Origin: Deltaproteobacteria bacterium
GTDB taxonomy: Bacteria; Myxococcota_A; JAADFL01
Assembly: GCA_013152945.1 (NCBI GenBank)
Contig: JAADFL010000120.1
Location: 4,681-68,680, forward strand
DNA: 64,000 nucleotides
Direction: 5' to 3'
This document shows, one piece after another, positions 5,926-62,526 of this stretch; the first letter of the stretch is position 1; each line of letters starts with the position of its first letter. Position numbers and translations under genes: made by a program. The notes beneath the pieces are model-generated. The model saw only the letters and a program-made list of their open reading frames with translations. It was not told where the DNA came from and made no database searches.

Positions 5926-5981
5926 ACCTGTCTTCACCACTGACGATTTCAAGAGAGCATGACTCGATTCGATTAGGCTGG

Positions 5982-6000
5982 GTTGATTGACCGAATCAAC
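5982..6000. other. Perfect 7-bp inverted repeat between convergent genes
   Basis: GTTGATT, a 5-base spacer, and AATCAAC lie 57 bases after the Big_5 gene stop and before the convergent small secreted gene. There is no T-run on either side, so it is a weak candidate for a termination or pausing hairpin. The rest of 5926-6165 shows no gene. Confidence 0.25.
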
Positions 6001-6165
6001 TGAATTACGAACAAGATTGCAAATTCTGTCAAGTGCTGGCAATAATACATCGTTTCTTGTAATTAAAGCCCTTCCAATTAAACCAAACGATAACAACGTG
6101 TCATTCCCTGGGCGAAATTCAAGGAGTACTTGTAATTTCCTGTGAATTACGAAGCGAACCAGGGG

Positions 6166-6675
6166 TTATTTAAGCAGAAATGTTCCCTGTGCCAGCACGT
6201 CCGCTATCCTGCGTTTCTTGTGTACCCTGACAACCCTCATCAGAATCTTCTGGCCTTGCTCAAAATCATCGGTGTCCAAAACCACCTTATCCACTACCTT
6301 ACGGGTCGAGGGCTTTGCATCTATTTGCAATATGGTCTGTGGCTTCTCATTGCCTGGATCTTTCGTGACATCAATAAAATAGAGCTGTAACGAACGAACC
6401 TTGGCCCTGCCGTTGAGCAATGCATGAAAATAAATCGTCCACTCTTCATCCTTGCTCATCTTGAACTCTGTCTTGTTGTGCTTCTCAAAGTACTTGAACC
6501 GGGCTTTCCGGCTCTTGAAACTCTTGGCAACCGGCTTGTCGGAAAACATGATGGTGCCTGTTTCTCCGAGTCTGGGCCCCTTGTTTTCCTTTTGTGCCTT
6601 TTTTGCCTGGCAAGGGACTGATAAAAGGAGAAATGCTCCCAGAACCAACAGTGGATTTCTAACTACTTGTTTCAT
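6166..6675 (-). CDS. Small secreted protein of unknown function
   Basis: The 169-residue product starts with a clear Sec signal (K-Q-V-V-R-N, hydrophobic core, S-V-P-C-Q-A then K-K). The Cys is before, not after, the probable cleavage site, so lipidation is unlikely. The mature part is very basic, with a K/R-rich stretch around residues 50-75 and several beta-strand-like segments. I do not recognise the family. The start ATG has an excellent Shine-Dalgarno (GGGAGGAC), and this element sits in a duplicated segment (6681-6720). It follows the kinase and GH84 genes on the same strand but has a 111-base gap and a possible promoter of its own. Confidence 0.7.
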   Translation of the reverse strand: MKQVVRNPLLVLGAFLLLSVPCQAKKAQKENKGPRLGETGTIMFSDKPVAKSFKSRKARFKYFEKHNKTEFKMSKDEEWTIYFHALLNGRAKVRSLQLYFIDVTKDPGNEKPQTILQIDAKPSTRKVVDKVVLDTDDFEQGQKILMRVVRVHKKRRIADVLAQGTFLLK

Positions 6676-6680
6676 TTTAT

Positions 6681-6720
6681 GTCCTCCCGGACTCTTTTCT
6701 TTGTCCTCCCGGACTCTTTG
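6681..6720. repeat. 22-bp tandem duplication carrying the Shine-Dalgarno
   Basis: The segment GTCCTCCCGGACTCTTTT (plus strand) occurs at 6681-6698 and again, with one change at its end, at 6703-6720. Read on the minus strand, each copy contains a GGGAGGAC ribosome-binding sequence, so the leader of the small secreted gene has two, 22 bases apart. Only the proximal one is correctly spaced for ATG 6675. Confidence 0.8.
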
Positions 6721-6729
6721 TACTTTAAA

Positions 6730-6759
6730 AACCTAGTCCTGCACTATATTACATGTCAA
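6730..6759 (-). promoter_or_regulatory. Candidate promoter of the small secreted gene
   Basis: On the minus strand TTGACA (6754-6759) is followed after 18 bases by TAGGTT (6730-6735). The -35 box is perfect and the -10 is poor (3 of 6). It would give a leader of roughly 50 bases that includes the duplicated Shine-Dalgarno segment. Confidence 0.35.
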
Positions 6760-6786
6760 GCAGGTGCCGCATTTTTTGTAAATTTG

Positions 6787-9330
6787 TCATTTTTGCCTCC
6801 TTGCCACAATGATCCGGGAAATCAACAATGCTGCCAAAATAAAAGCTCCTGCCAAAAGCACCGGCATTATGAAATCCTTCCTGCCTGATGCCTTGACTTC
6901 ACCGGGTAAAATATCGATGGTTCGGAAAGCGTAATCGACCAGTTGTCCGCACTTGACCACCAACGCCATTCTGAATTCACCGGTACGAACAGGTGTCCAT
7001 CGAACGACCCGATCTCTCCCGGGTTTTGCTTTGGGAGGACCCAAGAAATGCAACTTGCAATCATCCACATTTGAATCTGTTTCCATTCGGATATTCAGTC
7101 GCCGACCTGCAATGGAATATGCAGGTAGTTTCAGTCGGACCCGCAAGTACGGCTCACCACCTTTATCTTTGGGCCTTGGTGAATTCTCCCTGGCGCCTGA
7201 ATCATGCGCCTGCTTGACAAGGCGCAGCAAGAATTCATGACCAACGTGCCAGGAGCTGTTTTCTATAGCTTTCAATTTATTATCGATATTTTTTAATTTC
7301 GCATCTCCATCCGGGTTAAGCAAATAAGCGATAAGCCCGGCTCCCAAACGTGCCACATCTGATACGATAATTGCCGCCGGCTCCAGATCGTCTTCCATAT
7401 CTGTGGAGAGATTCGAATTGTATATGCATGTTCCGGATCTCCAAGCTGTTGCAAACATCTCCATCAGCTTGAATCCTTGTCTGGATGCATCTTGTTGCCT
7501 TTTTTCATCCAATGAACGTAAAAACACGCTCGTCAACCTGGATATTTCAGATGAATCCGGAGAGTTCGTGGTTACCCGTTCGCTTCCTGTAAAAAAGGAT
7601 GCGAGATGAGCCAGGCATTTTCTTTCAGGCCCGCCAAGTTCGAGTTGTACAGCCCGGTTGAAAACTGCCTGTGGCTCATACTCCTCAGGATCGAATAAAT
7701 ATTCCGAGTACGCCCGAAGTGGAATCCTGGATGCAGCCGCCTGGATCATGGGATTTACGAGAAAACCTGAAACAATGTTAAACAGGTTCTTATCCCTGCC
7801 CGTAATAGCCCCCAGATACAAATTCCCTTTTTTGCCGACATCGTTCACCGGGTAGTTGTCCCAAATTATCACTCTCCTGCCGCCGATGAGTTTACGAAGC
7901 CAGGCAATATCATCTACCCGAATCTCCCGTGAAAAAACATTTGGCCCGGTCCAGGCAACCGGCACATCGACAGGAATTTTGGCAAGGGCCCTCAAGTAGT
8001 CTTTTTCTTTCTGTTCAAGGGATGAAGGAGTACCGGAATAGACCGTTGGAACAAAAAAGAACAAAGAACCAGGGCCTGCCCTGTCTGTAATAACGCCTTT
8101 CATGTAACGGACCAGCCTGGCATGTGCGGTTCCAAGAGTTTCATCCGGCTTCTTTGGTATGTCATCCAGCAGCAGGCCGAAATTCTTGTAGCCGATGTCG
8201 GCCATAACATCTATTTTGTACTTCAGCAGTTCGATGTCTCTTTTTGAGTCCGGATCCAGGGTCAACCCTGGAGAAATCGTATAGGCTACCCTGATGCCGA
8301 GTCTGGAACCTGTCGAGAGAATCTCGGCAAAGCGCTCCTTTTCCTTCAAGGAAAGCGTTGCTGTCCAGTCTTGCCTGTGCCGGGGATCGTCTTTCGGAGC
8401 ATATGCATAGAAGTTGAATCCCATCCCCGCCATTGCACTAAGCAAGGCCAGCCGATGTAACCTCGGCCATGGTCTCCCATAGAAGCCTTCTACTACACCT
8501 CTTATGGGAAAAGCCGGGGTCAGACGCGGCAGGGCACGCTGAACCAGCCTTGGACCGCATTCTATCTTTTTCCCGTCAAATCCTACTGCAACAACTGCAA
8601 GTTCATAACCCGTAGGCTTACATGCGATTGGAGGTTTCAAAACTACATGATTGGTTCTGGGAATCAACAAGAGCGATGCCGCTGACGGGGTAAAACCCGA
8701 ATCCCTGGACCTGTGTAATTCCATGTGGTGGACCCTGGAAAAGTCCGGTTTCGGCCAATCCAAGAGTATCGAACCGTCACCCAGATTCTTGCTCGAAATG
8801 TTTATCGGCCTCGGCGGACCGCTTCCGTGCCCGAAAACCTTTGCCTCAAGTAAATGAACATCCTTGCCGGGATTCCTGGTCGCTATCTCTATGTATCCAA
8901 CCCTGGGTCCGGCAAGTTCTATTTGCATTTTATCTTTACCCTTGGCCCTGGCCAGCAAAGCGAGATTCCGTGGATCCATTCCGGCGGAAATACTGCATCC
9001 ATGTGCAGGCGGTTGTTTCCAGACAAGCTCGATACGGTCCGGGAAAAAACCCATCGGCGTAAAATTGGTAAAATCGAATATTATCGCCTGCCTGCCCTTT
9101 TCAGGCACAGCCCACCCAGTGGAAAGATCCTGGTCCCGAACAGCAGGCGGACCATCTTTTTCATACGAGCGCACCAGGCCCAATGTATCCGCGCCCATTA
9201 TCCCCGAGACCTTGATTCTACAGAACAGCGCCAGGTTTAATCCTTCCTGGTGGGCCGAAGAAGAAAAAGGCCAAAGGGCCAATGCTATCCACAAGACATG
9301 TCTGACCCGGAAAATCTTATTGTCTGCCAA
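6787..9330 (-). CDS. Membrane-anchored GH84-family beta-N-acetylglucosaminidase
   Basis: The 847-residue protein has the glycoside hydrolase 84 (NagJ / O-GlcNAcase) signature: R-G-V-V-E-G-F-Y-G-R-P-W at 277-288, N-F-Y-A-Y-A-P-K-D-D-P at about 305-315, and the catalytic Asp pair in G-L-L-L-D-D-I-P (D389, D390). GH84 enzymes remove beta-linked GlcNAc by substrate-assisted catalysis through that pair. An N-terminal signal (residues 8-26) is followed by a beta-rich region (about 30-270) with a discoidin-like and an FN3-like part. The C-terminus has one hydrophobic segment and a basic tail, so the enzyme should face outward, held at the membrane. The start is TTG 9330, two bases after the kinase stop, with GGAG upstream, so translation is probably coupled to the kinase. 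Confidence 0.85.
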   Translation of the reverse strand: MADNKIFRVRHVLWIALALWPFSSSAHQEGLNLALFCRIKVSGIMGADTLGLVRSYEKDGPPAVRDQDLSTGWAVPEKGRQAIIFDFTNFTPMGFFPDRIELVWKQPPAHGCSISAGMDPRNLALLARAKGKDKMQIELAGPRVGYIEIATRNPGKDVHLLEAKVFGHGSGPPRPINISSKNLGDGSILLDWPKPDFSRVHHMELHRSRDSGFTPSAASLLLIPRTNHVVLKPPIACKPTGYELAVVAVGFDGKKIECGPRLVQRALPRLTPAFPIRGVVEGFYGRPWPRLHRLALLSAMAGMGFNFYAYAPKDDPRHRQDWTATLSLKEKERFAEILSTGSRLGIRVAYTISPGLTLDPDSKRDIELLKYKIDVMADIGYKNFGLLLDDIPKKPDETLGTAHARLVRYMKGVITDRAGPGSLFFFVPTVYSGTPSSLEQKEKDYLRALAKIPVDVPVAWTGPNVFSREIRVDDIAWLRKLIGGRRVIIWDNYPVNDVGKKGNLYLGAITGRDKNLFNIVSGFLVNPMIQAAASRIPLRAYSEYLFDPEEYEPQAVFNRAVQLELGGPERKCLAHLASFFTGSERVTTNSPDSSEISRLTSVFLRSLDEKRQQDASRQGFKLMEMFATAWRSGTCIYNSNLSTDMEDDLEPAAIIVSDVARLGAGLIAYLLNPDGDAKLKNIDNKLKAIENSSWHVGHEFLLRLVKQAHDSGARENSPRPKDKGGEPYLRVRLKLPAYSIAGRRLNIRMETDSNVDDCKLHFLGPPKAKPGRDRVVRWTPVRTGEFRMALVVKCGQLVDYAFRTIDILPGEVKASGRKDFIMPVLLAGAFILAALLISRIIVARRQK

Positions 9331-45363: not shown

Positions 45364-48300
45364 CTACAGCAAACCTCCCCAACTCTCGTACCTACACCGG
45401 GGTTTCTTTGGTTGCTTGAGCTTCCTACTTCCCGAAGTGCCGGAAGAGAGCACGCTGTTAAGCCCGATCTCGCCGAAAGACGGCGTGAGAATCTGGTTCG
45501 GAGCTTCTTCCGGAACCACCACTTTTGCCACTCCACCGGTTCCCGGCAGGCCGGTGCTGATGATAGCGGTGTTTCCTCCCACCAGCGTTCCTGCATGCAT
45601 GTTCAGGATATTGACCCCGTAAAGGTAACGCAGCCATTCCATGCATCCAAAACCAGGGGCTCCTCCGACCACCGGCTCATTGGCAGTAAAATATACCTGC
45701 CCGAATACAACCGCCGGAGTACCGGTGACCTTTTTGTTCGGCCCGAGGAGCAACCTCGAGGCACAGCATCCTGTTGTACAGTATTCGTCCGGGTCGCATC
45801 CCGCATCATATGGCGATGCCATCTCACCGGTCATCTTGGATCGCAGGATGGTCTCGTTGGCACTGGACGGGCTGACCGTAGGTGAATAGGTATTCCTCAA
45901 GGCAAAAACCCATTCCTGGCGACCACGCCTGTTTGCCGGCAGGGGCCCTGTGGGCGTGCCCATATCCGATATGTCATCCGGGTTTCCGGTAGTGACCACC
46001 AGGATGACACTTCCATCTATATCGCGGACAAGGGCAGGTGCCACAACTATTGGCTCCCTGGATACCTGCCAGCCTGTGCCCTGGTACTGGTCCCAGAAAT
46101 CATTCTGGCCGTCAGGTATCTGCCAGTACTGCCATGCAGGCTGGGTGTTGGCAGGATCAGCACGTATATACTTCTCCTGGGGACCTGCAGGGTCCCACAG
46201 GCCGTTTCTTGCTACCAGTTTGAAAAGCCTGCCTTCGGAATTGCCGAACCATATCTCCTTAATACTGGAAAAGGTGCCGGACCCGAGAGCCACAGGCTCA
46301 CCTGTCAACGATTCACGGGTAAACGAACACTTGGTTGCCGGGCATCCTACACTGCCGCACCTGCACAGGCCGTCCACCTTGTCGCGCCATATAAGGTCCC
46401 TGGTATTCAAATCCACGATATAGAAGTACTGGCCTATTTCCCCTGGCGTGTCTTCCGGCGCATAGCCGCCTGGAAAAGCCATTATTGGAATCTTGCCATC
46501 CCTTGCGCCGCCGATTGTCAAGAACAGGTGTCCGAGTAAAGGCTTGCTCCAGGTTATCCCGAGATTCTCGAAGCGATCCGTCTTGCCTGTTATTTTTTCA
46601 TCGAAAGGTACATTTGCTGCACCTGAGGCCAACCTGGGAGAGTACTCGCCTATGAAACCGGGCGGCTGGTTGTTCTGTAGCTTTGTAGCATTGGTAATAT
46701 CCAGTGCCCAGTAACTCCTGCCGCCCCTGGTGCCGCCTGCAAGGACCCGGCGATACTCGTCGAGGCCCGGAAAATACAGGTCTTTCACGACCGGCGTGGC
46801 ATCCACGTAAAAATGCTTGCCCTCGAGAAGAGGAACCTTCATCGGTTGCAGAGTCACCGGATTTATTTGTGTGTAGTAATCCTTGCCCTCCAAGGCCTGG
46901 TCTGTCCATATGCCGCTCATTCCCGGCAGGTATCGCAAGTTTTTCAGTACTGAATACGGCACATAGCTCCAGAGTGCTCTCCTTGTCCAGGTGCCTGAAT
47001 GTGCAGTCACTGCATCATCAACCACGAATGCATGGACCTGGCCGTCTCCTGTTGCAACGAATGCCATTGTGGCATCCCTGCCGTCCGGATCGCCCGCATA
47101 GTCCTCAACAAAAGTCTGCCAGGCATCATCTCCTGCTCCCCGCGGCGGTCTGGCAATCACCACCTCTGAGTGCAACACCTCGCCCGGCAAGCAGTCGCCC
47201 CCAGCCGGCATGATACCTATTCCAGCTTCTGACGGCCTGGGGCACTTGAGTCTATTGACAACCTTCTGTACCTCTGCATTTCTGGGCAACTCCATTATTT
47301 CGCGCAGCCTGTTGAAGTTGGCAGGCTGTGTAATATCCACAAGGTTCCAATTCGGGGGAAAAGCAGAATATATCGGCCTTGCCTTGGGAAGGCTGAAGAG
47401 TTCCCATGTACTTACTGTAGGGCCGTCTATGGGAGCGAAATATTCCCTGTTATTAACTGCATCGAATGTCAGCCTGACCCTCCTTCTTTTCATCTCGAGG
47501 CGCCAGGGAGTCTTGGCCTGCACATCCACTCCTGCCCCGGCTGAAGCGGTCTGCCCGATCCTGAACACCGGGTCCACTATGTAGTACAGGGGATCCACGA
47601 GCGGCCCTTCAGGGGCCCTGGCCCTTACCACTGCCGGTGGCTGGTGCCTTGCAAGAACCTGGTGCTCCAGTATGGGACGAAAAACCCTTTCTCTTATGGC
47701 ATCCCTGACTTGCTGCACCATTTGCCTGTCGTTCCATCCTTCTTGGCCTGCAACATCAGTAGTGCCGTGCTCCAAATCGACCCTGATATAGTTGGCGTTG
47801 TACGTTGCCGTGTAGTACTTGGTGACGTCAGTGTTCTCGTGCTCGATGGAACTCGTGTCGCCCGCGGTGTGCATAGCCGTAAGTGTCGCATTCGCCCCTG
47901 CCTGGCCCCTAAGTAATGTATCCAGCCGGTCCTCTGTGTTCAAGGCGACCACGAAAGTCTTGACATGGAGCCCGAAGCCCTGGAGAGGGCCCGTGCCTTC
48001 CGCATTCAGGCCGGCAGCCAACCGGCTGATGACCGTGCTCGAACAGTCATAGTTGCCGCATTCCTCCAAAGATGGTGCGCTGCCGGTAATCAGCAGGATA
48101 TAAGTTTGCCTGCACGTCTTGAACGGATCGTTGACATCGGACAAATCGATCATGATCTGGGCATCTCGGAGCAGGGCCGAGAGCGGTGCCCTGCCTGCCA
48201 GGTTGTTCCTGAAATCCTTCCTCGTTCGCCGTCCGGTGTTGGGAGGAGTTCCCTGTACGTTCTGTCCCGATGCGGTTTCAGCCGCATCCAGTAGGGTAGC

Positions 48301-49293
48301 AATGATCAGGTCGTTTGTTTCTTTTTCCGATCTCTGGCAATTGGCTGTGTCAAAGCTCGCACACGTTCTTGGAACAACGTAGTTTCGTTCTCCATCCTTG
48401 GTGTACAGGCTTGCAAACGGCACGCTCAAGTACGCATCTGCACCATAATCGCCCCTGCCGTCAGTGAATCCCCATGCCCTCAATGGAAAGTCATTCCAGT
48501 CCCCGGGATCGTTGTCGAGCAACATGAGCCCGAACCTAATCTGTGAACCGAAGTTGTTGCCATTCGCAGTCTCTTTCCATCGCAGGAGTCCGTTGTCGTC
48601 GATCCGTACGGCGTCATTATTTTGGTTGTAGTCGTAAAATCCCCTCCTTCCGTTTCCTCCCGAATAGATAGTTGCCCGTCTTATCATTGGCTTATTCAAC
48701 CAGTTGGGTGCGCCTGCACAGGCTCCTGCGACTGCCATTCGGCATATAGGGAAAAAGGCGGTATTCGGACTCACCTCCGGCAGGACAGGCTGGGTAAAGT
48801 TGGCAAGCTGGTCGAAACCATTGAACCTTCCTCCACCCAAAAGAGTGGCCGGATCTCCTATAGCGCTGTCGTCAGGGTACCTCATGCGCCATGGGTCGCC
48901 TGAAGGAGGGTCCTGGTAGTCGCCCAACAGGGCTTGTATTACGATATGGAACAAGGTGGGAACCCTGTCCGGGCCATAACGATTGTTGGGTGGTCCTCCA
49001 CTCACGATTTCCTGTGGAGAATGGAACCAAACATTGTTCCACTGCTGGTGCCAGGGTCTCCTGTTCATGGCAAGGCTGTTGTCAAGCAGAATGAGAACCT
49101 GGGGCTTATGGCCGTACTTGAAGGTCTCGTTTCCCAGGTTGCGCCAGTTGGACTGGTCGCTGAACTCGGGGATACCAAGTTCGGTCCACTGGGCATTTGC
49201 CTTGCCCGGCATTGCCGAGACAAGCATGACCACGGCCGTTGCAAGTAACATCGATCTTGCCCCGGCCAATCTATTTTCCCGCCATCTTAACAT
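45364..49293 (-). CDS. pilY1: PilY1/PilC-type type IV pilus tip protein
   Basis: The 1309-residue product has a Sec signal (M-L-L-A-T-A-V-V-M-L-V-S-A-M-P-G-K-A-N-A). The N-terminal half has a VWA-like strand L-I-L-L-D-N-S-L-A-M (MIDAS incomplete: D-N-S-L-A) and a region rich in Asn/Gly. The C-terminal half is the PilC beta-propeller with M-A-F-V-A-T-G-D-G-Q-V-H-A-F, A-G-G-T-R-G-G-R-S-Y-W-A-L-D-I-T and V-R-D-I-D-G-S-V. PilY1 sits at the pilus tip or initiates assembly and helps adhesion. AAGGAG lies before the ATG. It is the last and largest gene of the minor-pilin operon, as usual. Confidence 0.92.
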   Translation of the reverse strand: MLRWRENRLAGARSMLLATAVVMLVSAMPGKANAQWTELGIPEFSDQSNWRNLGNETFKYGHKPQVLILLDNSLAMNRRPWHQQWNNVWFHSPQEIVSGGPPNNRYGPDRVPTLFHIVIQALLGDYQDPPSGDPWRMRYPDDSAIGDPATLLGGGRFNGFDQLANFTQPVLPEVSPNTAFFPICRMAVAGACAGAPNWLNKPMIRRATIYSGGNGRRGFYDYNQNNDAVRIDDNGLLRWKETANGNNFGSQIRFGLMLLDNDPGDWNDFPLRAWGFTDGRGDYGADAYLSVPFASLYTKDGERNYVVPRTCASFDTANCQRSEKETNDLIIATLLDAAETASGQNVQGTPPNTGRRTRKDFRNNLAGRAPLSALLRDAQIMIDLSDVNDPFKTCRQTYILLITGSAPSLEECGNYDCSSTVISRLAAGLNAEGTGPLQGFGLHVKTFVVALNTEDRLDTLLRGQAGANATLTAMHTAGDTSSIEHENTDVTKYYTATYNANYIRVDLEHGTTDVAGQEGWNDRQMVQQVRDAIRERVFRPILEHQVLARHQPPAVVRARAPEGPLVDPLYYIVDPVFRIGQTASAGAGVDVQAKTPWRLEMKRRRVRLTFDAVNNREYFAPIDGPTVSTWELFSLPKARPIYSAFPPNWNLVDITQPANFNRLREIMELPRNAEVQKVVNRLKCPRPSEAGIGIMPAGGDCLPGEVLHSEVVIARPPRGAGDDAWQTFVEDYAGDPDGRDATMAFVATGDGQVHAFVVDDAVTAHSGTWTRRALWSYVPYSVLKNLRYLPGMSGIWTDQALEGKDYYTQINPVTLQPMKVPLLEGKHFYVDATPVVKDLYFPGLDEYRRVLAGGTRGGRSYWALDITNATKLQNNQPPGFIGEYSPRLASGAANVPFDEKITGKTDRFENLGITWSKPLLGHLFLTIGGARDGKIPIMAFPGGYAPEDTPGEIGQYFYIVDLNTRDLIWRDKVDGLCRCGSVGCPATKCSFTRESLTGEPVALGSGTFSSIKEIWFGNSEGRLFKLVARNGLWDPAGPQEKYIRADPANTQPAWQYWQIPDGQNDFWDQYQGTGWQVSREPIVVAPALVRDIDGSVILVVTTGNPDDISDMGTPTGPLPANRRGRQEWVFALRNTYSPTVSPSSANETILRSKMTGEMASPYDAGCDPDEYCTTGCCASRLLLGPNKKVTGTPAVVFGQVYFTANEPVVGGAPGFGCMEWLRYLYGVNILNMHAGTLVGGNTAIISTGLPGTGGVAKVVVPEEAPNQILTPSFGEIGLNSVLSSGTSGSRKLKQPKKPRCRYESWGGLL

Positions 49294-50104: not shown

Positions 50105-51595
50105 TCAACTCCCACTCCTAGGATCGATATTGGCGATAATATTGTTCAAAAATATCACGGTTCTGATCGACCTTACCCGCGCGAGTCCGTTACGATAAAT
50201 CGGAGGTCCTGTTCCATCCCTTACAAGGTCGTATGCATCTATCGGCAAAACAGCGCCCGGAGGCAGCCTGGTCAGCCCCGGATCTTCATGCAATGTATGC
50301 CCGCGCAAAGATATCATGACCGAACGCAAGCTCCACGGTAACTGGTCCCTGTAACAGGGCTGGTTGGAACTTGGATTCCAAGCGCATCCTGCGGGAAGCT
50401 CGGGGTCTATTCCCTCTGTATCACCAAGAGGGGTTGCAAGTGGTGAATTTATTGCCTGGAGCGGCTGTGTCTGGTTCAAGGGCGGCACGGTGGGCAATGC
50501 CAGGCGAGGATCAGGCAGCCATCCCCGAAGCCCGAGTCTCTGGTTCCTGTCCCTGGTTATCATGATGCTGAACCCGCTCGTGTTGGGATTGGTGGTATAG
50601 GGAAGCACATCCTCCATGATATCCGTACAACATGCGTTTATGGCATTGCCGGCCAAATCTTGTATGGGCGGGTTACAGGGCTGGCAGGTCGGACGCCCTA
50701 CAAGGCAGGCATCCTCTACGATTCTCCGGATACGCCAGACACTGACCTGGGTCCCGTCTACCGGGTTGATGGCATGATCGGACAATGGGTCGTATGGTCC
50801 TGGAACCTGGTACTCCTGGTAGCTTACGAAGTGCACTGGTGAAATCCTCACCATGTCGGTTTCGTATTTTTCTCCTGACAGCGAAATTGGGGGACTCATG
50901 GTAAGGTTTCCACCGGCTGTGGCTGTGGCTGTCAACCTGGAGTAAGCATGTGTCCCACCTGCCATTATATGCACCATCTGGTTGTTGCAGAACAACATTT
51001 GCCAGGGCTGCAACCCGCCTCCACCAGGTGCGCTGTAATACGGATTCACCCTGGGATCATTGGCTTCAGGGGATGCAGGATTGTTTATCATGCATCCAGG
51101 CGTACCAATACGTGCTCCCGTGGCCCCTCCCTGGTACGAAGCCGGGTAGCAGGCTAGTCCCTCGCCTGTCCTTGAACCCTGGGGATAATAGGGATAACTC
51201 GTTCCGCTGGCATAGTTGCCCACAAGGGTGATTATGGGCCCATCCGGATTCGCATCAGGAAACAAGTCGCCGGCAGATACCCTCTGGTTGTACATCACCG
51301 GAAGGGGAACGAAGTTTTCCAAGGTGTTCACGTGTTCCGCAGATACCACGGGACTCAACATGAAACCCGCCCGCTCGAAGTCGGCACGCATGATTTCAGT
51401 TGCGAACCTCAAGTTGGACTGGAGTTCCGCTACCTCCTGTTGCCTGAAAAAAGCCTTGGTGGTAGTGCTGAACAGGCCTACCAATACAGAGACTATAAGG
51501 GCGGATACGACCATGGATACAGCGAGTTCGATCAGGGTGAACCCCTCTTGGCCGGAGCTCCTGAGCCTTGAAAACATATTGGACCATTCAGCCAT
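50105..51595 (-). CDS. PilW-like minor pilin
   Basis: ATG 51595 is chosen for AAGGAG 5 bases upstream, giving an 18-residue leader that ends S-G-Q-E-G before F-T-L-I-E-L, the classic prepilin site with Glu5. An ATG at 51616 overlaps the previous stop and is less well placed. The 496-residue product is long for a pilin and has many Pro/Asn loops and Cys pairs (C-L-V-G-R-P-T-C-Q-P-C, N-A-C-C), so a large folded head is likely. Confidence 0.85.
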   Translation of the reverse strand: MAEWSNMFSRLRSSGQEGFTLIELAVSMVVSALIVSVLVGLFSTTTKAFFRQQEVAELQSNLRFATEIMRADFERAGFMLSPVVSAEHVNTLENFVPLPVMYNQRVSAGDLFPDANPDGPIITLVGNYASGTSYPYYPQGSRTGEGLACYPASYQGGATGARIGTPGCMINNPASPEANDPRVNPYYSAPGGGGLQPWQMLFCNNQMVHIMAGGTHAYSRLTATATAGGNLTMSPPISLSGEKYETDMVRISPVHFVSYQEYQVPGPYDPLSDHAINPVDGTQVSVWRIRRIVEDACLVGRPTCQPCNPPIQDLAGNAINACCTDIMEDVLPYTTNPNTSGFSIMITRDRNQRLGLRGWLPDPRLALPTVPPLNQTQPLQAINSPLATPLGDTEGIDPELPAGCAWNPSSNQPCYRDQLPWSLRSVMISLRGHTLHEDPGLTRLPPGAVLPIDAYDLVRDGTGPPIYRNGLARVRSIRTVIFLNNIIANIDPRSGS

Positions 51596-51612
51596 GTTCG
51601 CTCCTTGTATTT

Positions 51613-52341
51613 TCATGTCCCCTGGAACGTGGTGAGGTATCCCCCTCCACCGGTCACCATGGTATCCAGGAGTACCATTCTCCTGTTCCACTCGTCTGCA
51701 GTTCCGTAATAATCCTTGGAGGCCGTCTCTCCCTGGTCCTTGTTGCTCCAGGATACGCGCAACGTAAGCCTTACAACCTCGTTGCTTGCATTTGGAGATG
51801 TTGTAAGGCCCAAAAGTTGTGCCCTGTACTCAAGTATGAAACGCCTGTTAATATCCTGTGCCACCGGATCTTTTAATCTGCCCTGCTCATCGAGCAACCA
51901 CTGCCCGGTCTTGGTATCCTTCCAACCTGGAAGTGTAGTAAAATCCGGGTTGTCGAGAAATGTTGTGATTGGGCAAAATTGCTTGGTGTTGTCGCACCAA
52001 GGTATCGGAGGGGGAACAGGGTCGTTTTTCAGGGGAAGGTCGGGAAACACGTGCTGCCATAGTGCTCCGGGAGTATTCTGGAACAAGGGCTCCTGGCTTG
52101 CAAGCTTGGGATTCCATGCAGTGGCCCTTCGCCTCACGTCTTCGAGAAAGGCATTGGCCAGGTAGGATGCAGCGCTTATTTCCCTTGCGAACCTGTTGCT
52201 CCTGGCAGAAATGTAAATCGTCTGAAAGACCGCGGCCAGGGAAATACCCAACACTGCCAGGGCCGCGATGCACTCGACCATTGTGAATCCATCAGCCTGC
52301 TTCTTTCTTGAACGAAGACTGAACCCCTTTTTGAAAATCAT
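51613..52341 (-). CDS. PilV-like minor pilin
   Basis: ATG 52341 follows GGGAGGAG and overlaps the stop of the preceding GspH/FimT-like gene (ATGA). The 242-residue product has the basic leader K-K-G-F-S-L-R-S-R-K-K-Q-A-D-G and cleavage before F-T-M-V-E-C, with Glu5 present. The hydrophobic helix and pilin-type head follow. It is one of the minor pilins that prime assembly. Confidence 0.87.
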   Translation of the reverse strand: MIFKKGFSLRSRKKQADGFTMVECIAALAVLGISLAAVFQTIYISARSNRFAREISAASYLANAFLEDVRRRATAWNPKLASQEPLFQNTPGALWQHVFPDLPLKNDPVPPPIPWCDNTKQFCPITTFLDNPDFTTLPGWKDTKTGQWLLDEQGRLKDPVAQDINRRFILEYRAQLLGLTTSPNASNEVVRLTLRVSWSNKDQGETASKDYYGTADEWNRRMVLLDTMVTGGGGYLTTFQGT

Positions 52342-55845: not shown

Positions 55846-55910
55846 AATGACTCGAGAATAATTTCACAAAGCATGGTGTGGCTTTGGGTCAAGCGCCAGG
55901 GAGAAGCAAG

Positions 55911-57221
55911 ATGAAACATATCAAATTCCAGATCCTTCTTTCGCTCATTGGATTGCCGGCCTTTATCTTTGCAGCATTTCTGTCTTTGCACTGTTCCAAC
56001 AATGGTCAATCAAGGCAAGGTGATACCGACACTGATACTGATACCGATATGGATATTGACATTGATATTGATATCGACACCGATACCGATACGGACACGG
56101 ACATTGATATCGATACTGATACTGACACCGACACGGACACGCAGGAGCCTTCTTGTGCATCCCTTGGAGGGTATTGCGCCTTGCACAAAGGAGAATGCAG
56201 GTCAGGATACATTGTTTCAAAAGATGATTACGATTGTCCAAAGACCTGCTGCTTGCCTGAAGGCGGAGATACAGACATAGATACGGATACCGATATGGAC
56301 ACAGACATGGACATTGATGTCGATACCGACACTGATACTGACACTGATACCGGCACTGACACCGGCACTGATACCGGCTCTGATACCGGCTCTGATACCG
56401 GCACCTCTGCTTCGTGCGACGGTATTACATGTTCAGGCCATGGCAAGTGCACGCTCGATCCTTTTTTACAAACCCCGCGCTGCATCTGCGACGATGGTTA
56501 TCACGCGCAGGGTTTGAACTGTCTTTCGGATGCCGACTCTTGCGCGGGTATAGACTGCTCGGGCCATGGAACATGCAAGGTCAACCAGTCCAATCATTCT
56601 GCATACTGTGATTGTGAACAAGGATACGTTGCAGTAGGTCTCGACTGCATCGAACAGGACAAGGTTTGCCAGGGAGTAGACTGCTCGGGCCATGGAACAT
56701 GCTGGGCCTGGGGAGGCAAACCGGTTTGCGGTTGCGATGAAGGATATACCCCTTCGAGAAAAGACGGGCTCGATTGCGTACCCACGAGCCAGGTCTGCAA
56801 GGGTGGAAAAATCGATTATGATGTCGACGGAGACGGTGTGAACGAGACTTACTTCGAACCCAGTGACGATGAATGCTTCATGTACGAACTCGTCAACTAC
56901 ACCCGGGCAACGAGCGACGACGAGGGTCACCCGGAGTGCCACACGCCTTTGGCATGGGACGTCCTGTGGGCAGCTCACGGCCGGAACCATTCCAAGAAGA
57001 TGTCCGAGGCAGGACATCTTTTTCACGAAGATTTTCCGTACGGCCAAAACTGCGCCCGGGGCTGTGACCCCAAGTGTGAAATGAACCTATACATGTCAGG
57101 ATCGAACGAGCCTCATTGCCCGGAATTGTCACATCACTGTAATATCATGCGTTGTTCATTCAGCCACCTGGGAGTCGGCTATTACAACCCTGGATACTGG
57201 AATACACAGAATTTTTACTGA
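55911..57221 (+). CDS. Lipoprotein with Asp-Thr linkers, EGF-like repeats and CAP domain
   Basis: ATG 55911 follows GGGAG. The 436-residue product has a signal with lipobox S-L-H-C. Residues about 38-77 and 120-164 are Asp-rich dipeptide runs (D-T, D-I, D-M, then D-T-G and G-S-D-T), flanking a Cys-rich knot (C-A-S-L-G-G-Y-C, C-P-K-T-C-C). Three EGF-like units follow, each with C-S-G-H-G-x-C and C-x-C-x-x-G-Y. The C-terminal CAP/SCP domain has A-A-H-G-R-N-H-S-K-K-M, H-L-F-H-E, G-V-G-Y-Y and N-T-Q-N-F-Y. The acidic linkers and EGF units suggest calcium binding outside the cell (inference). Confidence 0.88.
   Translation: MKHIKFQILLSLIGLPAFIFAAFLSLHCSNNGQSRQGDTDTDTDTDMDIDIDIDIDTDTDTDTDIDIDTDTDTDTDTQEPSCASLGGYCALHKGECRSGYIVSKDDYDCPKTCCLPEGGDTDIDTDTDMDTDMDIDVDTDTDTDTDTGTDTGTDTGSDTGSDTGTSASCDGITCSGHGKCTLDPFLQTPRCICDDGYHAQGLNCLSDADSCAGIDCSGHGTCKVNQSNHSAYCDCEQGYVAVGLDCIEQDKVCQGVDCSGHGTCWAWGGKPVCGCDEGYTPSRKDGLDCVPTSQVCKGGKIDYDVDGDGVNETYFEPSDDECFMYELVNYTRATSDDEGHPECHTPLAWDVLWAAHGRNHSKKMSEAGHLFHEDFPYGQNCARGCDPKCEMNLYMSGSNEPHCPELSHHCNIMRCSFSHLGVGYYNPGYWNTQNFY
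56022..56141 (+). repeat. Hexanucleotide-type repeat encoding Asp-Thr/Ile run 1
   Basis: About 20 imperfect 6-base units of the form GAY-AYN, encoding D-T, D-I and D-M pairs. Synonymous third positions vary, so the protein pattern is better kept than the DNA, which argues for selection on the peptide. Confidence 0.85.
56268..56403 (+). repeat. Hexanucleotide-type repeat encoding Asp-Thr/Gly run 2
   Basis: A second run of GAY-AYN units changes downstream to 9- and 12-base units (GAT-ACC-GGC, GAT-ACC-GGC-TCT). Near-identical DNA copies at the 3' end suggest recent slippage. Confidence 0.85.
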
Positions 57222-57330: not shown

Positions 57331-59433
57331 CTAGGTTTTCCCGCTCTTTCCTCTCCACAGGGTATTGACCTTGTCCTGAACCAAAGTCGAAAGCGTATTG
57401 TACATATCCTTGTCTTTGACCTCCTCGATCCTGGAATCAGACCATTCGGATGCAATGGATTTGCAGTCCACGCTTTCAACCAGGAATTCTTCCACCCACG
57501 AGCCAGGAACGAGGTTGACAAAAGGCCCCGTGGACAACATCTTTTTCAGAGAACCCGCTTTTTTCACCAGGACATCTTCGAGGAGTTGATATGTTACGAG
57601 AAAAGGTCTTCGGGATTCAATCTCATCTTCTATTGCAATGAAGTACGCATCGGCCAGTGTAATGGTCCAACCTGCATGGGCCTTTAGATATCCGGCCAGG
57701 GCTTTGCCGCCAAGGCTTCCCTGGAAATGAAACAACACCGCACCCTTTTCAGGGAGCCTAATCATAGGGATACTGCCTTCTTCGACACCGAGCCACTTCC
57801 CAAAAGACCTGGCCCCGGGCCTTGAAACGAGTGGGCTCGAGCGGGGAGAAAAGCGTGGAGGTTCCGCCAAGTCCCTTGTTTGCTGCACCACGACCACCTT
57901 GTCATCGACAGACAAGACATGTCTTGCCTTGCCTCCAATGGAAATTTCAGCTTCCGGTCCACCGGCTATCCTACCCAGCTTCTGGCCGGTACTCTCTTCC
58001 ACAACTTCAAGCAATCCCGTGTTTTCCGAGTCAATATTCGAATGTATGCTCCCCTTTTCCATAGCCCTTATCAAGTTGTCCCCCGGCATGTACTTTTCGC
58101 GCCCACCTCTTTTGAGCCAGCCTTTTTCAGCCATTATTTCGAACATCCGATCTATTCGTCCGGCCGGGTACATGGCCGCAATATCAGCCGGCAATCTTGA
58201 CACGAACACCTTTGAGTCTATCCAACCGGACCTTGATTGCATGAGCATGGACCCTGCTTGCTGTGCAAGCACCGAAGGGGTGAAGGCATAATGACTTGCA
58301 TACAATTTTCCCTGCCTTGCCATGGCCACCTGGTGCCTTAATTGCAATTCTTCGCTCTTGGTCCTGGCACATGCCAGCAACCGGCATTCACCTCTCCTGC
58401 GGTTACCTCTTCCAATCCGTTGAATAAGCGACGATACCGAGCCTGCAGGTCCGACAAGGGCGACCAGGTCGACATCACCTATATCTATGCCCAACTCCAA
58501 GGTGGTGGTTGCAAAACACACGGCCGAAGGATCTTTTAAAAACCGCCCTTCCACCCGCTCCCTCTCTGCTTTCGCCAGGCTACCGTGATGGCTGTACACC
58601 CTTGAGCCAAGCAAGCCTGAAGACGTTGCAAGGCCGGCAATGAACTCGACTTCGTCGCGCCTCTGTAAAAAGACCAATATCTTCCTTGCATACCCGCCCA
58701 ACCGGGAAGAAAGGACTTTCAGCAAATGGAACGGTGTGGGAGTTTGGCAGAATTCCGCATCGATCTCTCTCTGATCGTTCACGATTATGCACTCCGGATC
58801 CTGCAAATACCGCAATGCAAGGGCCCTTGTATCCTCCAGCGTAGCAGATGACACTATGGTCTGAAGCCGGGTCCCCCGCTTTTGCAACATCACTCGAATT
58901 CTTTCGACCAGGATCCTGAGCTGGTCGCCCCGTGTGGTCTTGTCCAGTACATGTATCTCGTCCAGCACCAATGCCCCAAGGCCCTTCAACATCGACGGTT
59001 GCCTGACCAGCATGGAATCCAATGACTCGGGTGTGGTCACGAGCACCTGGAATCGACGCTTCGAAGAAGTGTCCTTGTGATCTCCCGTCCGCCTGCCGAG
59101 GTGCAAACCCATTCGGGAAAGAGGGCTTGTTATTCTTCTGGCCAAGTCATTGACAAGAGCCCTTGTCGGACTCACGATAACCACTGTTACTACCGGCGCC
59201 GGATCTTGCCTTACATGCCTCTCCACCAGGGGTGCCAAAAAGGCTTCTGTCTTTCCGGATGCGGAAGGTGAACAAAGGAGAACATCACGCCCGGCCAGAA
59301 TAGGTCCGGAGGCCAAGGCCTGCACCTTTGTCGGCCTCCCGAACCTGGCATAAAAGGGATACCACGTCCTTTGAAGGGATTCCTTCAATCTGGAAGCCGA
59401 CTCGGTATCTGCCATGGATACCTGGACAGACAA
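57331..59433 (-). CDS. Lhr-like superfamily 2 helicase (BrxHI-like)
   Basis: TTG 59433 has GGAGG 5 bases upstream and is preferred to ATG 59415. The 700-residue protein has Q-A-L-A, motif I S-P-S-A-S-G-K-T-E (55-63), S-P-T-R-A-L, T-T-P-E-S-L, DEIH (158-161), S-A-T-L, T-T-L-E-L-G-I-D-I-G and motif VI Q-R-I-G-R-G-N-R-R. That is the Lhr branch of DEAD/DEAH helicases; the region after the RecA pair is shorter than in long Lhr. BREX type 2 loci carry an Lhr-like helicase, BrxHI. The gene lies 23 bases after a DUF2791 ATPase gene. It should unwind DNA or RNA-DNA with 3'-5' polarity, by analogy with Lhr. Confidence 0.88.
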   Translation of the reverse strand: MSVQVSMADTESASRLKESLQRTWYPFYARFGRPTKVQALASGPILAGRDVLLCSPSASGKTEAFLAPLVERHVRQDPAPVVTVVIVSPTRALVNDLARRITSPLSRMGLHLGRRTGDHKDTSSKRRFQVLVTTPESLDSMLVRQPSMLKGLGALVLDEIHVLDKTTRGDQLRILVERIRVMLQKRGTRLQTIVSSATLEDTRALALRYLQDPECIIVNDQREIDAEFCQTPTPFHLLKVLSSRLGGYARKILVFLQRRDEVEFIAGLATSSGLLGSRVYSHHGSLAKAERERVEGRFLKDPSAVCFATTTLELGIDIGDVDLVALVGPAGSVSSLIQRIGRGNRRRGECRLLACARTKSEELQLRHQVAMARQGKLYASHYAFTPSVLAQQAGSMLMQSRSGWIDSKVFVSRLPADIAAMYPAGRIDRMFEIMAEKGWLKRGGREKYMPGDNLIRAMEKGSIHSNIDSENTGLLEVVEESTGQKLGRIAGGPEAEISIGGKARHVLSVDDKVVVVQQTRDLAEPPRFSPRSSPLVSRPGARSFGKWLGVEEGSIPMIRLPEKGAVLFHFQGSLGGKALAGYLKAHAGWTITLADAYFIAIEDEIESRRPFLVTYQLLEDVLVKKAGSLKKMLSTGPFVNLVPGSWVEEFLVESVDCKSIASEWSDSRIEEVKDKDMYNTLSTLVQDKVNTLWRGKSGKT

Positions 59434-59456
59434 GAAATCCTCCGGAAGCTTTCGAG

Positions 59457-60965
59457 CTATGACATGGCTTCATCCAGGTCTTTGAAGAAATCCGCGAGCA
59501 AGGCCGGAGACAATCGCATCATATCGAGGAACTCTACGCTCAATTTTGCCGCATCCCTGGGACTGGATATACTTCCCGTCTTAATCAGGGACCACATCAC
59601 CTCTCCCAGGGGCTTCTTCAGCTTTGCAGGCAAATTCATGGCCGGGTAGGCCCTCTCGAAAAGCCCTGAAATACGTTCACTCAGCTTTCTATAGTCTTTC
59701 AGGGTCAAGGGGGTCAGCTCGGTGATCCTTTCATCTCCCACGAGATCCCTCAACAACCTCTCTCCATGCGTGCTTGGTGTCATTGCACACACGAGATAGA
59801 TCCCATGCGGCCAATTGAAAAGGAAAGGCAACTTCTTCTGTGGCGGAAATCCTCCTTTTGGAATGGATTCCGCGTCAAACGACACCCCTTTCTCCCCAAG
59901 GGCAGCAAGAGACATGCACTTGAAAGTGGTATCTGCAAAGGCCTTTGCAGCCGAGCCCAACAAGTCGTAGTTCTCGGCTTCGTCCAGCAGCAGGACAAGG
60001 CCCTTGTAACCAAGGCTCCTGGCCAAAATCGAAATTCCCGAGACCAGGTAGGAGTACACGTGGGCCCACGGCTGAAAATCCTTTAGAGAGTATACCCTTG
60101 GGCCGCTCCCGCCGAGGCCCTTCAAATAGGTGTCCAGGTCCTGGTTACCCCTCTCCCTGTGGCCGGAGATCCAGTCCAACAGCAGGTCCATTGCAAACCG
60201 GTCATCCTTGCTTGCCAAAATGTGGTAATATTGAACAGCCGATCTCAAGTACAGGTGCCGGGCTATCACGTTCCTGTTGTTCTTGAAGTCATCCATGAAG
60301 TTATCATCTGTTGTCGCCGCCACGAGTAAAGGTTCAAGGCCCTGCTCGTCCCCTGCCAGCCTGTCCGGATATTTCAATCTCGATACCAGTTGCCTGTAGA
60401 TCCTCATGGGTTGATTCGGCCTGGCGTACAAGGGATCCATGGTGGCCTTGCCGACGAGAAATCCTTTCTGTAATGCCTCTTGCTCGACGAGTTCGAGCAT
60501 GTGAGTCTTGCCTGCGCCATAATCACCGAGAAAAACCCTGGCAGATCCCCGATCTTCCGCCTCGTCCAGGTCCAAGGTCACCAACTCCAGCTCCTTGTCT
60601 CTACCTACGCTGGATTGCCTGGTTTCCATGGAAGGGACCACGCCTGTTCTTAGTGCTTCCAGCACCATTGCCGCAGTTCGATCTTTTTTTGTGTCCGCCT
60701 TTTCTGTTTTCAAGGGTAATTTTTTTCCCTGGGAATGCTTTATACTTCCGATCGCCGGCTTTTTGGTTCCGGTCATTGGGTCAAGAGAGCGAGCATCCAG
60801 CAATTCCAATTCCTGGAGACGAACCTCCAGCAAGAGCCGCGGATTGGAGTCGAAACGCACCTGGAGAGATCTACCCCCCCGCCTGGAACGGGCTACCTCA
60901 CCAAGTCCAAGTTCAGGGTGCCTTACCCTGGCTCCCGGTTTTATCGTCCCGACCTGTCTCTCCAT
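59457..60965 (-). CDS. DUF2791 (BrxD-like) ATPase with N-terminal SH3/Tudor-like domain
   Basis: The stop of the upstream gene overlaps ATG 60965 (TGATG). The 502-residue product starts with a small beta domain (about 1-55): G-A-R-V-R-H-P-E-L-G-L-G-E-V, like the CarD or UvrD/PcrA C-terminal Tudor fold. A basic linker follows to about 95. The P-loop ATPase has Walker A G-D-Y-G-A-G-K-T-H (147-155) and Walker B L-V-L-L-L-D-E-A-E (near 320), with A-M-T-P-S as sensor region. It matches the DUF2791/BREX ATP-binding family. The N-terminal fold could bind RNA polymerase or the partner helicase (inference). Confidence 0.82.
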   Translation of the reverse strand: MERQVGTIKPGARVRHPELGLGEVARSRRGGRSLQVRFDSNPRLLLEVRLQELELLDARSLDPMTGTKKPAIGSIKHSQGKKLPLKTEKADTKKDRTAAMVLEALRTGVVPSMETRQSSVGRDKELELVTLDLDEAEDRGSARVFLGDYGAGKTHMLELVEQEALQKGFLVGKATMDPLYARPNQPMRIYRQLVSRLKYPDRLAGDEQGLEPLLVAATTDDNFMDDFKNNRNVIARHLYLRSAVQYYHILASKDDRFAMDLLLDWISGHRERGNQDLDTYLKGLGGSGPRVYSLKDFQPWAHVYSYLVSGISILARSLGYKGLVLLLDEAENYDLLGSAAKAFADTTFKCMSLAALGEKGVSFDAESIPKGGFPPQKKLPFLFNWPHGIYLVCAMTPSTHGERLLRDLVGDERITELTPLTLKDYRKLSERISGLFERAYPAMNLPAKLKKPLGEVMWSLIKTGSISSPRDAAKLSVEFLDMMRLSPALLADFFKDLDEAMS

Positions 60966-62335
60966 CAATGGATACTCCTTGGTCCACCCTTTCGGGATGC
61001 TCTCCCGCTGTTTTCATCCATTTTTTCTAATTCATCTCCTTCCAACTCGTCCTCGTCATCCATGTCTTCCCAGACTTCACCTTTTGAAACCAATTCTTCC
61101 ATGGCCCCTACGATTTCATCTTCGTGGCTGAGCTTTGAAATATCCTCTTGCCCGTCCTCGATCTGTCTGAACAACGCATCGGTCCAGACCTTCACGAAGA
61201 GCCTCCTGTGGTTCAACTCGAACTCCCTGTCAACGCATTCCCTTGCAAGAGATGCTATGTTACGGTTTTGAAGTTCCTGGTCGAATTCCACCCCCCTTGC
61301 CTTTTCAAAAACGTACAATATCTTCCTGCCCAGTATATTGAGAAGGTCAACCGGAGCCATGTCAAGGCTCTGCAGATCTATTATCGGAGCCTGGGGAGAA
61401 CGTTTCGAGAACGGCAAGGGACTCTTGAGCCGCTGGTACAAGGCCGGATACTCGGGCACAACATTTCTCATGAACTCCGGGGGAACAGCGTAAAGGAAAA
61501 GTGTATTGGGAAGATGAGCCCTACCGCATAGATCTATAACCTGCCTCAGGTTGTCTCCAATAGCCCTGGTTCGACGCATTCCCACGCTCATGTTGCGGTC
61601 AACTTCATCGAACAACAGAACAAGGCCCGGAATGCCCAAACCGGCCAGCACCTGGCTCAAACTTCTCAACATTGCAAAGGCATTCGCCTTGCTCATGGTT
61701 TCGAATACACCCAGGTCTTTCACCATGGCGGCCGAGACCGGCTCTCCTTGAAGCCAGGCCCCTATCCTTGCTGCGATTTCTTCGTCCCCGGCCAGCTCGG
61801 CTTTCATGTATGAATAAATCGCCTGCCTGAAAGAATGGCTTTCGCAGGGTACTCTTTTGGCAGTTTTTCTCACAAACAACTCTGCAGCTTTTCTTCCCTG
61901 AATTTGTACAATGTCTTCAAGGAAATCATCCAACAAGTCGGTCAATCCGCCTGGTGAAGGGAATTCCCCGGCCCCGGGAGGTGGGCAGAGATTCTTCGCT
62001 ACTGCTTTATAGACTTTCAACGGATCATCATAAGGACATTCGGCAGGTGACAACTCTACGAAGGAGGCCACGAATTCGTGTTTCCATGCCAGCTCCCTGA
62101 CGCAAAAGAGGAAATGTGTCTTGCCGCCGCCAAAGTAACCTTCAACCAGCTTGAAGCTGGACCCGCCTTTCAATATGCCCTGAAAATACTCGCTTTCCAG
62201 AACTTGCAGGTAATTATCGGTCCCCACATTAATATGCCCCACCCCGATTTCCGGAGGCTGGCCCCCTTCGGAAAGCCGTTGCAGAATGTGTTCGGCCACT
62301 TTTTGCGAAAGCTTTTCTTCTCCGGTCGTTTCCAT
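60965..62335 (-). CDS. DUF2791 (BREX-type) ATPase, second paralogue
   Basis: ATG 62335 follows TGGGGGTG. The 456-residue protein has Walker A G-Y-F-G-G-G-K-T-H-F (66-74), a helical insert with Cys residues, Walker B L-V-L-L-F-D-E-V-D-R-N (near 240) and an arginine-rich R-R-T-R-A-I-G-D-N-L-R-Q-V. The pattern I-N-V-G-T-D-N-Y-L-Q-V-L-E before the P-loop matches BREX DUF2791 ATPases. The last 50 residues are very acidic (D-M-D-D-E-D-E-L-E-G-D-E-L-E). It is the first gene of the three-gene operon. Confidence 0.83.
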   Translation of the reverse strand: METTGEEKLSQKVAEHILQRLSEGGQPPEIGVGHINVGTDNYLQVLESEYFQGILKGGSSFKLVEGYFGGGKTHFLFCVRELAWKHEFVASFVELSPAECPYDDPLKVYKAVAKNLCPPPGAGEFPSPGGLTDLLDDFLEDIVQIQGRKAAELFVRKTAKRVPCESHSFRQAIYSYMKAELAGDEEIAARIGAWLQGEPVSAAMVKDLGVFETMSKANAFAMLRSLSQVLAGLGIPGLVLLFDEVDRNMSVGMRRTRAIGDNLRQVIDLCGRAHLPNTLFLYAVPPEFMRNVVPEYPALYQRLKSPLPFSKRSPQAPIIDLQSLDMAPVDLLNILGRKILYVFEKARGVEFDQELQNRNIASLARECVDREFELNHRRLFVKVWTDALFRQIEDGQEDISKLSHEDEIVGAMEELVSKGEVWEDMDDEDELEGDELEKMDENSGRASRKGGPRSIH

Positions 62336-62390
62336 GCGACACCCCCAGAGTTGGCGCCAATGCTTTCATATATTGTGCACCCGGGTCAAT

Positions 62391-62420
62391 CATCCTTTTG
62401 TCCGACATCCTTTTGTCCGA
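62391..62420. repeat. Perfect 15-bp tandem repeat in a divergent promoter region
   Basis: CATCCTTTTGTCCGA occurs twice without a gap, at 62391-62405 and 62406-62420, between the ATPase/helicase operon (minus) and the PRPP-synthetase-like gene (plus). It could be a pair of regulator sites or a recent duplication. Confidence 0.9.
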
Positions 62421-62456
62421 TGTGTACGAGGCTGCGAAAATGTCTCCACTTCCCGC

Positions 62457-62485
62457 TTGACCGATCCTCGATATTGCTGTACTAG
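62457..62485 (+). promoter_or_regulatory. Candidate promoter of the PRPP-synthetase-like gene
   Basis: TTGACC (62457-62462), 17 bases, TACTAG (62480-62485), 41 bases before ATG 62527. The -35 is good, the -10 moderate. Confidence 0.4.
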
Positions 62486-62526
62486 CGCTTCAAGGCTCAT
62501 GTTTATTGATTATCACGGAGGCCCCA

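Follow-up and report, generated by a model that had tools for sequence, protein, structure and literature searches.

The stretch of DNA analysed here (the window) comprises 64,000 nucleotides of contig JAADFL010000120.1 from Deltaproteobacteria bacterium (Myxococcota_A, assembly GCA_013152945.1), and it carries on its minus strand three closely spaced genes that encode two ATPases and one helicase. The working names D1 and D2 are used for the ATPases, which match PF10923, H for the helicase, and X and Y for further genes found in the loci of relatives. D1 (60965-62335, minus strand, 456 amino acids (aa)) encodes a BrxD-like AAA+ ATPase, and D2 (59457-60968, minus strand) encodes a second, diverged BrxD-like AAA+ ATPase that is 503 aa long with a TTG start or 502 aa long with an ATG start at 60965; the latter, which overlaps the D1 stop, is probably the start in use. 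At this junction (TTGATGG), the stop codon TGA of D1 shares bases with the start codon ATG of D2 (TGATG). A gap of 23 bases (59434-59456, minus strand) separates D2 from H (57331-59433, minus strand, 700 aa), and a GGAGG ribosome site precedes the TTG start codon of H by about 5 bases, so both the overlap and the gap reported in a first-pass annotation of the sequence were recovered. That annotation had regarded the genes as a stand-alone module of three, which did not hold: relatives show four genes in the order X-D1-D2-H, and sequence comparison indicates that this conserved and co-inherited set of four is the unit, with X displaced in the source genome. The three genes of the window are no chance find, because all motifs are intact and orthologues occur in the same order across phyla.

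Both D1 and D2 are AAA+ ATPases of the ORC/Cdc6 type, as indicated by profile matches to PF10923 (BrxC_BrxD, formerly DUF2791; 153.6 and 91.3 bits, respectively, with a Pfam cut-off of 22.2) together with intact Walker A (GYFGGGKTHF in D1, GDYGAGKTH in D2) and Walker B (LLFDEVD and LLDEAE) motifs. Walker A was kept in 94 of 94 D1 relatives and 90 of 90 D2 relatives. The N-terminus of D2 (approximately residues 9-59; 60792-60944, minus strand; GARVRHPELGLGEV) appears to hold a UvrD/PcrA-type Tudor-like domain. The D2 profile matched five UvrD/PcrA Tudor structures (7egt, 9dqs, 7egs, 6yi2, and 5dma; E 0.003-0.41), which are singly weak but concordant, and a profile built from the D2 N-terminus found the domain in 68 of the 90 D2 proteins and in none of 95 D1 proteins. 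Another genome, which has a complete X-D1-D2-H cassette, encodes an additional D2-type ATPase (L037, 9291-10460) that shares 41% identity with D2 of the window and is cut short by a contig end. Matches to PF10923 also occurred in the control genomes of Methanocaldococcus jannaschii and Deinobacterium chartae.

H was assigned to the Ski2-like superfamily 2 (SF2) helicases with Lhr-core architecture on the basis of Pfam, a predicted model, and a phylogenetic tree. It contains DEAD (106.8 bits) and Helicase_C (62.6 bits) domains, and its AlphaFold2 model (predicted local distance difference test score (pLDDT) 90.8) aligned end to end with Lhr of Mycobacterium smegmatis (5v9x; residues 12-688, Z 30.2, root-mean-square deviation 3.2 over 597 residues, compared with Z 25.1 for the runner-up fold). 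The model thus follows the Lhr-core succession of RecA1, RecA2, winged helix, beta barrel, and C-terminal domain, and the earlier description of two DUF2791 ATPases plus an Lhr-like helicase is borne out. The helicase motifs were intact in nearly all of 62 H proteins, and the source genome has one copy of H.

Relatives in the same phylum carry gene X, of about 290 codons, directly ahead of D1-D2-H. In the window, the usual place of X is a divergent intergenic region (62336-62505) without X, from which a gene for a PRPP-synthetase homologue diverges. An X profile located the gene in the source genome on another contig (C46, 4271-5146; L040) with its frame intact. At that site, X and the upstream gene Y (C46, 1908-4274, outside the window; 788 aa, with a weak match to Helicase_C_3, PF13625, E 1e-5) share four bases (ATGA), which indicates translational coupling. 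The set is split in this genome: Y-X and D1-D2-H lie on different contigs. The order Y-X-D1-D2-H is intact in L044 and L045, the nearest relatives found (D1 65 and 64% identical, respectively), in which Y lies ahead of X at 5752-7911 and 6394-8952. The X on C46 is very likely the displaced partner of the window genes, because its closest relatives are those of L044 and L045, the same two genomes that are closest for D1, D2, and H. Y was seen only with the source genome, L044, and L045 and not in 57 relatives (single-sequence search), and its candidacy as a general fifth subunit was rejected; it is a possible fifth subunit that would be restricted to this clade or else evolve very rapidly.

X had no Pfam match above cut-off and no meaningful PADLOC match. 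Its predicted model (pLDDT 96) contains a long helical hairpin (coiled coil) and a small beta domain and ends in a winged-helix-like domain; residues 168-290 of the model aligned with the winged helices of ORC1, Cdt1, Cdc6, and TubR (Z 5.0-6.7). A structure search with Foldseek returned no match below E 0.1 and no significant whole-chain match. Structural rows for an alpha-glucosidase and ribosomal S20 were taken as common-arrangement noise, and matches of the X profile to PDB sequences were set aside as coiled-coil artefacts.

The cassette is widely distributed and its members travel together. Among 377 genomes of the phylum, X was present in 65 and D1 in 64; 62 genomes contained both, three X alone, and two D1 alone. 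X and D1 were adjacent in 61 of the 62 genomes with both, the sole exception being the source genome. A wider survey with one genome per species yielded 80 loci, mostly from metagenome bins of which some are perhaps mislabelled, under titles that include Bradymonadales, Myxococcales/Myxococcota, other Deltaproteobacteria, Acidobacteria, Armatimonadetes, Eremiobacterota, Planctomycetota, WOR-3/Stahlbacteria, Aminicenantes, Latescibacterota, and one Methanoperedens archaeon. The order was fixed across these loci: X lay upstream of D1 in 76 of 80, D2 downstream in 76 of 80, and H after D2 in 51 of 80. The four loci that lack D2 are all situated at, or near, the end of a contig or locus, and this is also true of at least 10 of the 29 that lack H; of the four loci without X, one begins at a contig edge and three are WOR-3 loci without X nearby. 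Of 15 genomes examined in which H was not adjacent, 14 had a match to the H profile at another place (600 bits or more in 13), so the parts are retained within one genome even when the operon is broken. Pairwise distances among X, D1, D2, and H were correlated (Spearman 0.71-0.91), a result to which shared descent contributes. X was single copy in all eight good genomes (seven of seven genera) of one family and in 9 of 12 good genomes of another. A full cassette is also present in the culturable Lujinxingia vulgaris (L059).

The cassette is flanked by clade-specific chromosomal genes. Among 120 flanking open reading frames (ORFs) of 39 loci, PADLOC gave only a handful of matches, for the most part to generic domains such as a kinase and reverse transcriptases, and none of PglX, PglZ, and BrxC was matched strongly. 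The first-pass annotation had noted that PglX, PglZ, PglW, and the large BrxC/PglY of type 2 bacteriophage exclusion (BREX) are missing beside the genes, and this was confirmed and extended. No pglX, pglZ, pglW, or brxC was found in the window flanks (ORF list and Pfam), and neither PglX nor PglW occurred among the flanking ORFs of 39 relatives, where adjacency alone was examined; these gene neighbourhoods showed a conserved X-D1-D2-H order without flanking pglX or pglZ. In the whole source genome (4.84 Mb, 94% complete), PglZ (PF08665) had no match, and no third PF10923 protein was detected, although a BrxC too diverged for the PF10923 profile could escape. No D1 relatives were found in viral contigs or phages; none of its plasmid matches reached 60% identity, those in the rows inspected lay at about 28% or lower, and they were of BREX or TerB type (Shango) where annotated. 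The ratio of nonsynonymous to synonymous substitution (dN/dS) of D1 was 0.012-0.018, which denotes very strong purifying selection, and its dS resembled that of the flanks (the comparison left out the L022 pairs for FAD oxidoreductase). In one family (L027, L028, and L030), genes for a LonB/Lon-type protease and an NAD-kinase-like protein form a conserved neighbourhood downstream of H.

With regard to the neighbours in the window, the gene upstream of D1 encodes a PRPP-synthetase homologue (TIGR01251, 194 bits), as had been proposed, whereas the neighbour described as a CAP lipoprotein has a CAP match below cut-off (E = 0.032), and EGF-like repeats are better supported. This lipoprotein-like ORF (55878-57221, plus strand) combines long Asp-Thr/Asp-Ile repeats with EGF-like domains. 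Farther away, the window encodes a 1576-aa protein with about 10 Big_5 Ig-like domains (PF13205; 1195-5925, plus strand) and two ORFs of 1309 and 528 aa (45364-49293 and 50105-51691, both minus strand) without a Pfam match at 1e-6.

The profile searches and trees place D1, D2, and H next to known defence proteins and outside their clades. The PADLOC BrxD profile scored 117 bits with D1 and 638 bits with the genuine BrxD of L031, and the BrxHI profile scored 208 bits with H and 932 bits with the genuine L031 helicase. Against the NCBIfam BrxD model, D1 reached 118.3 and D2 56.7 bits, both far short of the cut-off of 350 for a BrxD orthologue. The PADLOC profiles of Shango gave 83 bits for D1 (SngB) and 200 bits for H (SngC). 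Genuine type 2 BREX loci of related genomes served as references in the trees (three BrxD of 604-647 PADLOC bits and the BrxHI of L031), together with SngB and SngC from three TerB-ATPase-helicase loci, in one of which (L125) the first gene is annotated merely as hypothetical. The ATPase tree resolved four separate clades, namely D1 (support 1.00), D2 (0.96), BrxD (0.99), and SngB (1.00); it was midpoint-rooted and does not fix which ATPase is nearest to BrxD. The D1 and D2 clades have a similar internal branching; therefore, the split between D1 and D2 is older than the spread of the cassette. In the helicase tree, for which Escherichia coli Lhr was the outgroup, the H proteins of the cassette formed one clade (0.98) that was sister to SngC plus BrxHI (0.97), and H accordingly lies outside the SngC clade as D1 and D2 lie outside that of SngB. 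The suggestion of a BREX-derived minimal system does not agree with these clades, or with scores far below those of genuine type 2 BREX parts. Beside the genuine BrxD-BrxHI pair of two other loci (L033, 2005-3519; L036, 6506-8107), a protein of 504-533 aa without a PADLOC family was observed, which is perhaps an unlisted accessory of type 2 BREX.

Whether the window genes encode the D1, D2, and H parts of X-D1-D2-H, a putative chromosomal machine of four subunits that processes DNA, is in our judgement a finely balanced matter. We give a role in chromosome maintenance (repair or replication-transcription conflict) an even chance, and prefer it to anti-phage defence. In its favour count the co-inheritance and fixed order of the four genes, their correlated divergence, the persistence of single copies within families, the chromosomal flanks, the lack of relatives in phages and viral contigs, the Lhr fold of H, the Tudor-like domain of D2, and the winged-helix-like part of X. 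With its fourth part on a separate contig here, the set could be a routine complex for chromosome care, relatives of which were drawn into defence. In such a complex, D1 and D2, which have no winged helix of their own, would assemble as a mixed AAA+ oligomer of the ORC/Cdc6 type, and X would serve as scaffold and contribute the winged helix that binds DNA. Through its Tudor-like domain, D2 would hold the complex on RNA polymerase or DNA, and ATP hydrolysis would load or activate H, a 3'-5' helicase of the Lhr type, on forks, R-loops, or damaged DNA. The sister-group position of H is compatible with the "ancestral genome-maintenance unit" proposed earlier as an alternative, but is no proof of it. 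More speculative, and on balance improbable as a whole, is the proposal that X-D1-D2-H is an unrecognised core chromosome-maintenance complex: a bacterial loader of helicases, tethered to RNA polymerase, in which the ORC/Cdc6 logic is divided between the AAA+ part in D1/D2 and the winged helix in X. The ATPase-helicase pairs of BREX-2 and of Shango would then each have been recruited from its kin.

Several observations weigh against a chromosomal maintenance complex. All characterised neighbours of the ATPase-helicase dyad (BREX-2, Shango) are defence systems, and the patchiness within the phylum (65 of 377 genomes) means that the cassette is dispensable. The BrxD of true BREX also has a low dN/dS (0.030), which makes this ratio no discriminator between housekeeping and defence. 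The assignment of X to the source genome relies on the binning of a 218-contig assembly, the Tudor profile gave no detection in 22 of 90 D2 proteins, and the winged-helix match of X, being under Z 8, may be a mere common arrangement.

In one alternative, X-D1-D2-H would act against phages or plasmids as a so far unrecognised system similar to Shango or the BrxD-BrxHI arm of BREX-2, where X (in the place of TerB) and the ATPases would steer the Lhr-like helicase to foreign DNA. The sister relationship of H to SngC plus BrxHI, the patchy distribution, and the arrangement of an upstream adaptor followed by ATPase and helicase, shared with the phage-restricting Shango (PMC10250203), all speak for it. 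We nevertheless regard it as rather unlikely: the flanks show neither a defence-island setting nor a BREX partner, phage and viral contigs gave no matches, and plasmid matches were distant and, where annotated, of BREX or Shango type. Furthermore, no nuclease or methylase partner was seen, single copies persist within families, and the parts are kept even when dispersed. That D1-D2-H is instead a remnant, left behind or moved out after the decay of a type 2 BREX system, would explain why the protein families are those of BrxD and BrxHI, but this is very improbable given that all three proteins form clades of their own, genuine BREX-2 loci of the same phylum score very differently, the arrangement of two ATPases plus X recurs in many phyla, and purifying selection is strong with no decay. 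It was rejected on the trees, the scores, and the finding that the genome has neither PglZ nor a third PF10923 protein. Only a slight chance is likewise given to the genes being a non-functional fragment in the source genome whose X was lost from the locus; the break between X and D1, which 61 of 62 genomes do not have, points that way, whereas an intact X lies elsewhere in the assembly and is closest to X of the same two genomes as are D1, D2, and H, the frames and motifs of the three genes are intact, and unlinked parts occur in other genomes too.

As far as sequence comparison goes, the cassette is real and widespread, a relative of the BrxD-BrxHI and Shango pairs that has apparently not been described before. 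No set of the X-D1-D2-H type is described in the accessible part of a 2026 BREX survey (PMC12839542), and the term DUF2791 was not found in the open-access literature, with supplements and subscription papers outside the scope of both searches. If the chromosomal complex holds true, a widespread and so far unnamed four-gene cassette would give BrxD-BrxHI and Shango a sister group outside defence islands, and a comparison for what the ATPase-helicase dyad itself does and which of the two roles, defence or chromosome care, is the older. X, a family without annotation whose fold is predicted with confidence, would become a testable subunit, and the label "BREX system ATP-binding protein" suggested by the Pfam name would mislead for D1 and D2.

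Individual parts of the cassette have relatives among known proteins as well. H matches Lhr-core helicases (Mycobacterium smegmatis, archaeal) in fold at full length, and these belong to a DNA-repair family that works at compromised forks (PMC7437997). However, their partner is MPE or RNase T, whereas H is coupled with two AAA+ ATPases and X, and its sequence is distant from the large-helicase equivalogs of NCBIfam (82.9-147.3 bits versus cut-offs of 849-1496). The Tudor domain of PcrA/UvrD binds RNA polymerase (PMC5397179), and a recognisable relative is found in D2. In PcrA/UvrD it lies at the C-terminus of a superfamily 1 (SF1) helicase, whereas the relative in D2 is N-terminal in an AAA+ ATPase whose RNA polymerase binding is putative.

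Type 2 BREX resembles the cassette in having a PF10923 AAA+ ATPase immediately upstream of an Lhr-like Ski2 helicase. According to the survey cited above, BrxD is an ORC-Cdc6 AAA+ protein that forms a tight dyad with BrxHI and is its proposed loader (PMC12839542). The cassette differs by its two ATPases and X, by separate clades and scores far under those of BrxD and BrxHI orthologues, and by the lack of adjoining PglX, PglZ, PglW, and BrxC, with PglZ absent from the genome. Shango, which the first-pass annotation did not consider, is as relevant a comparison as BREX. It consists of a TerB protein (SngA), an ATPase (SngB), and a helicase (SngC), and shares with the cassette an adaptor, a BrxD-like ATPase, and an Lhr/DEAD helicase in the same order. 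On the other hand, the cassette has a second ATPase, an X without a TerB match, branches of its own, and no defence-island setting. No Pfam or PADLOC match to a TerB domain was found in X, and the TerB matches of the source genome are on other contigs (C95, C6, and C113). On the lack of TerB and on the trees, the reading of the cassette as Shango itself was rejected. Because D1, D2, BrxD, and SngB form separate clades and H is sister to BrxHI plus SngC, the sequences place the cassette as a third branch beside BREX and Shango, a cousin and not a leftover of known anti-phage systems.

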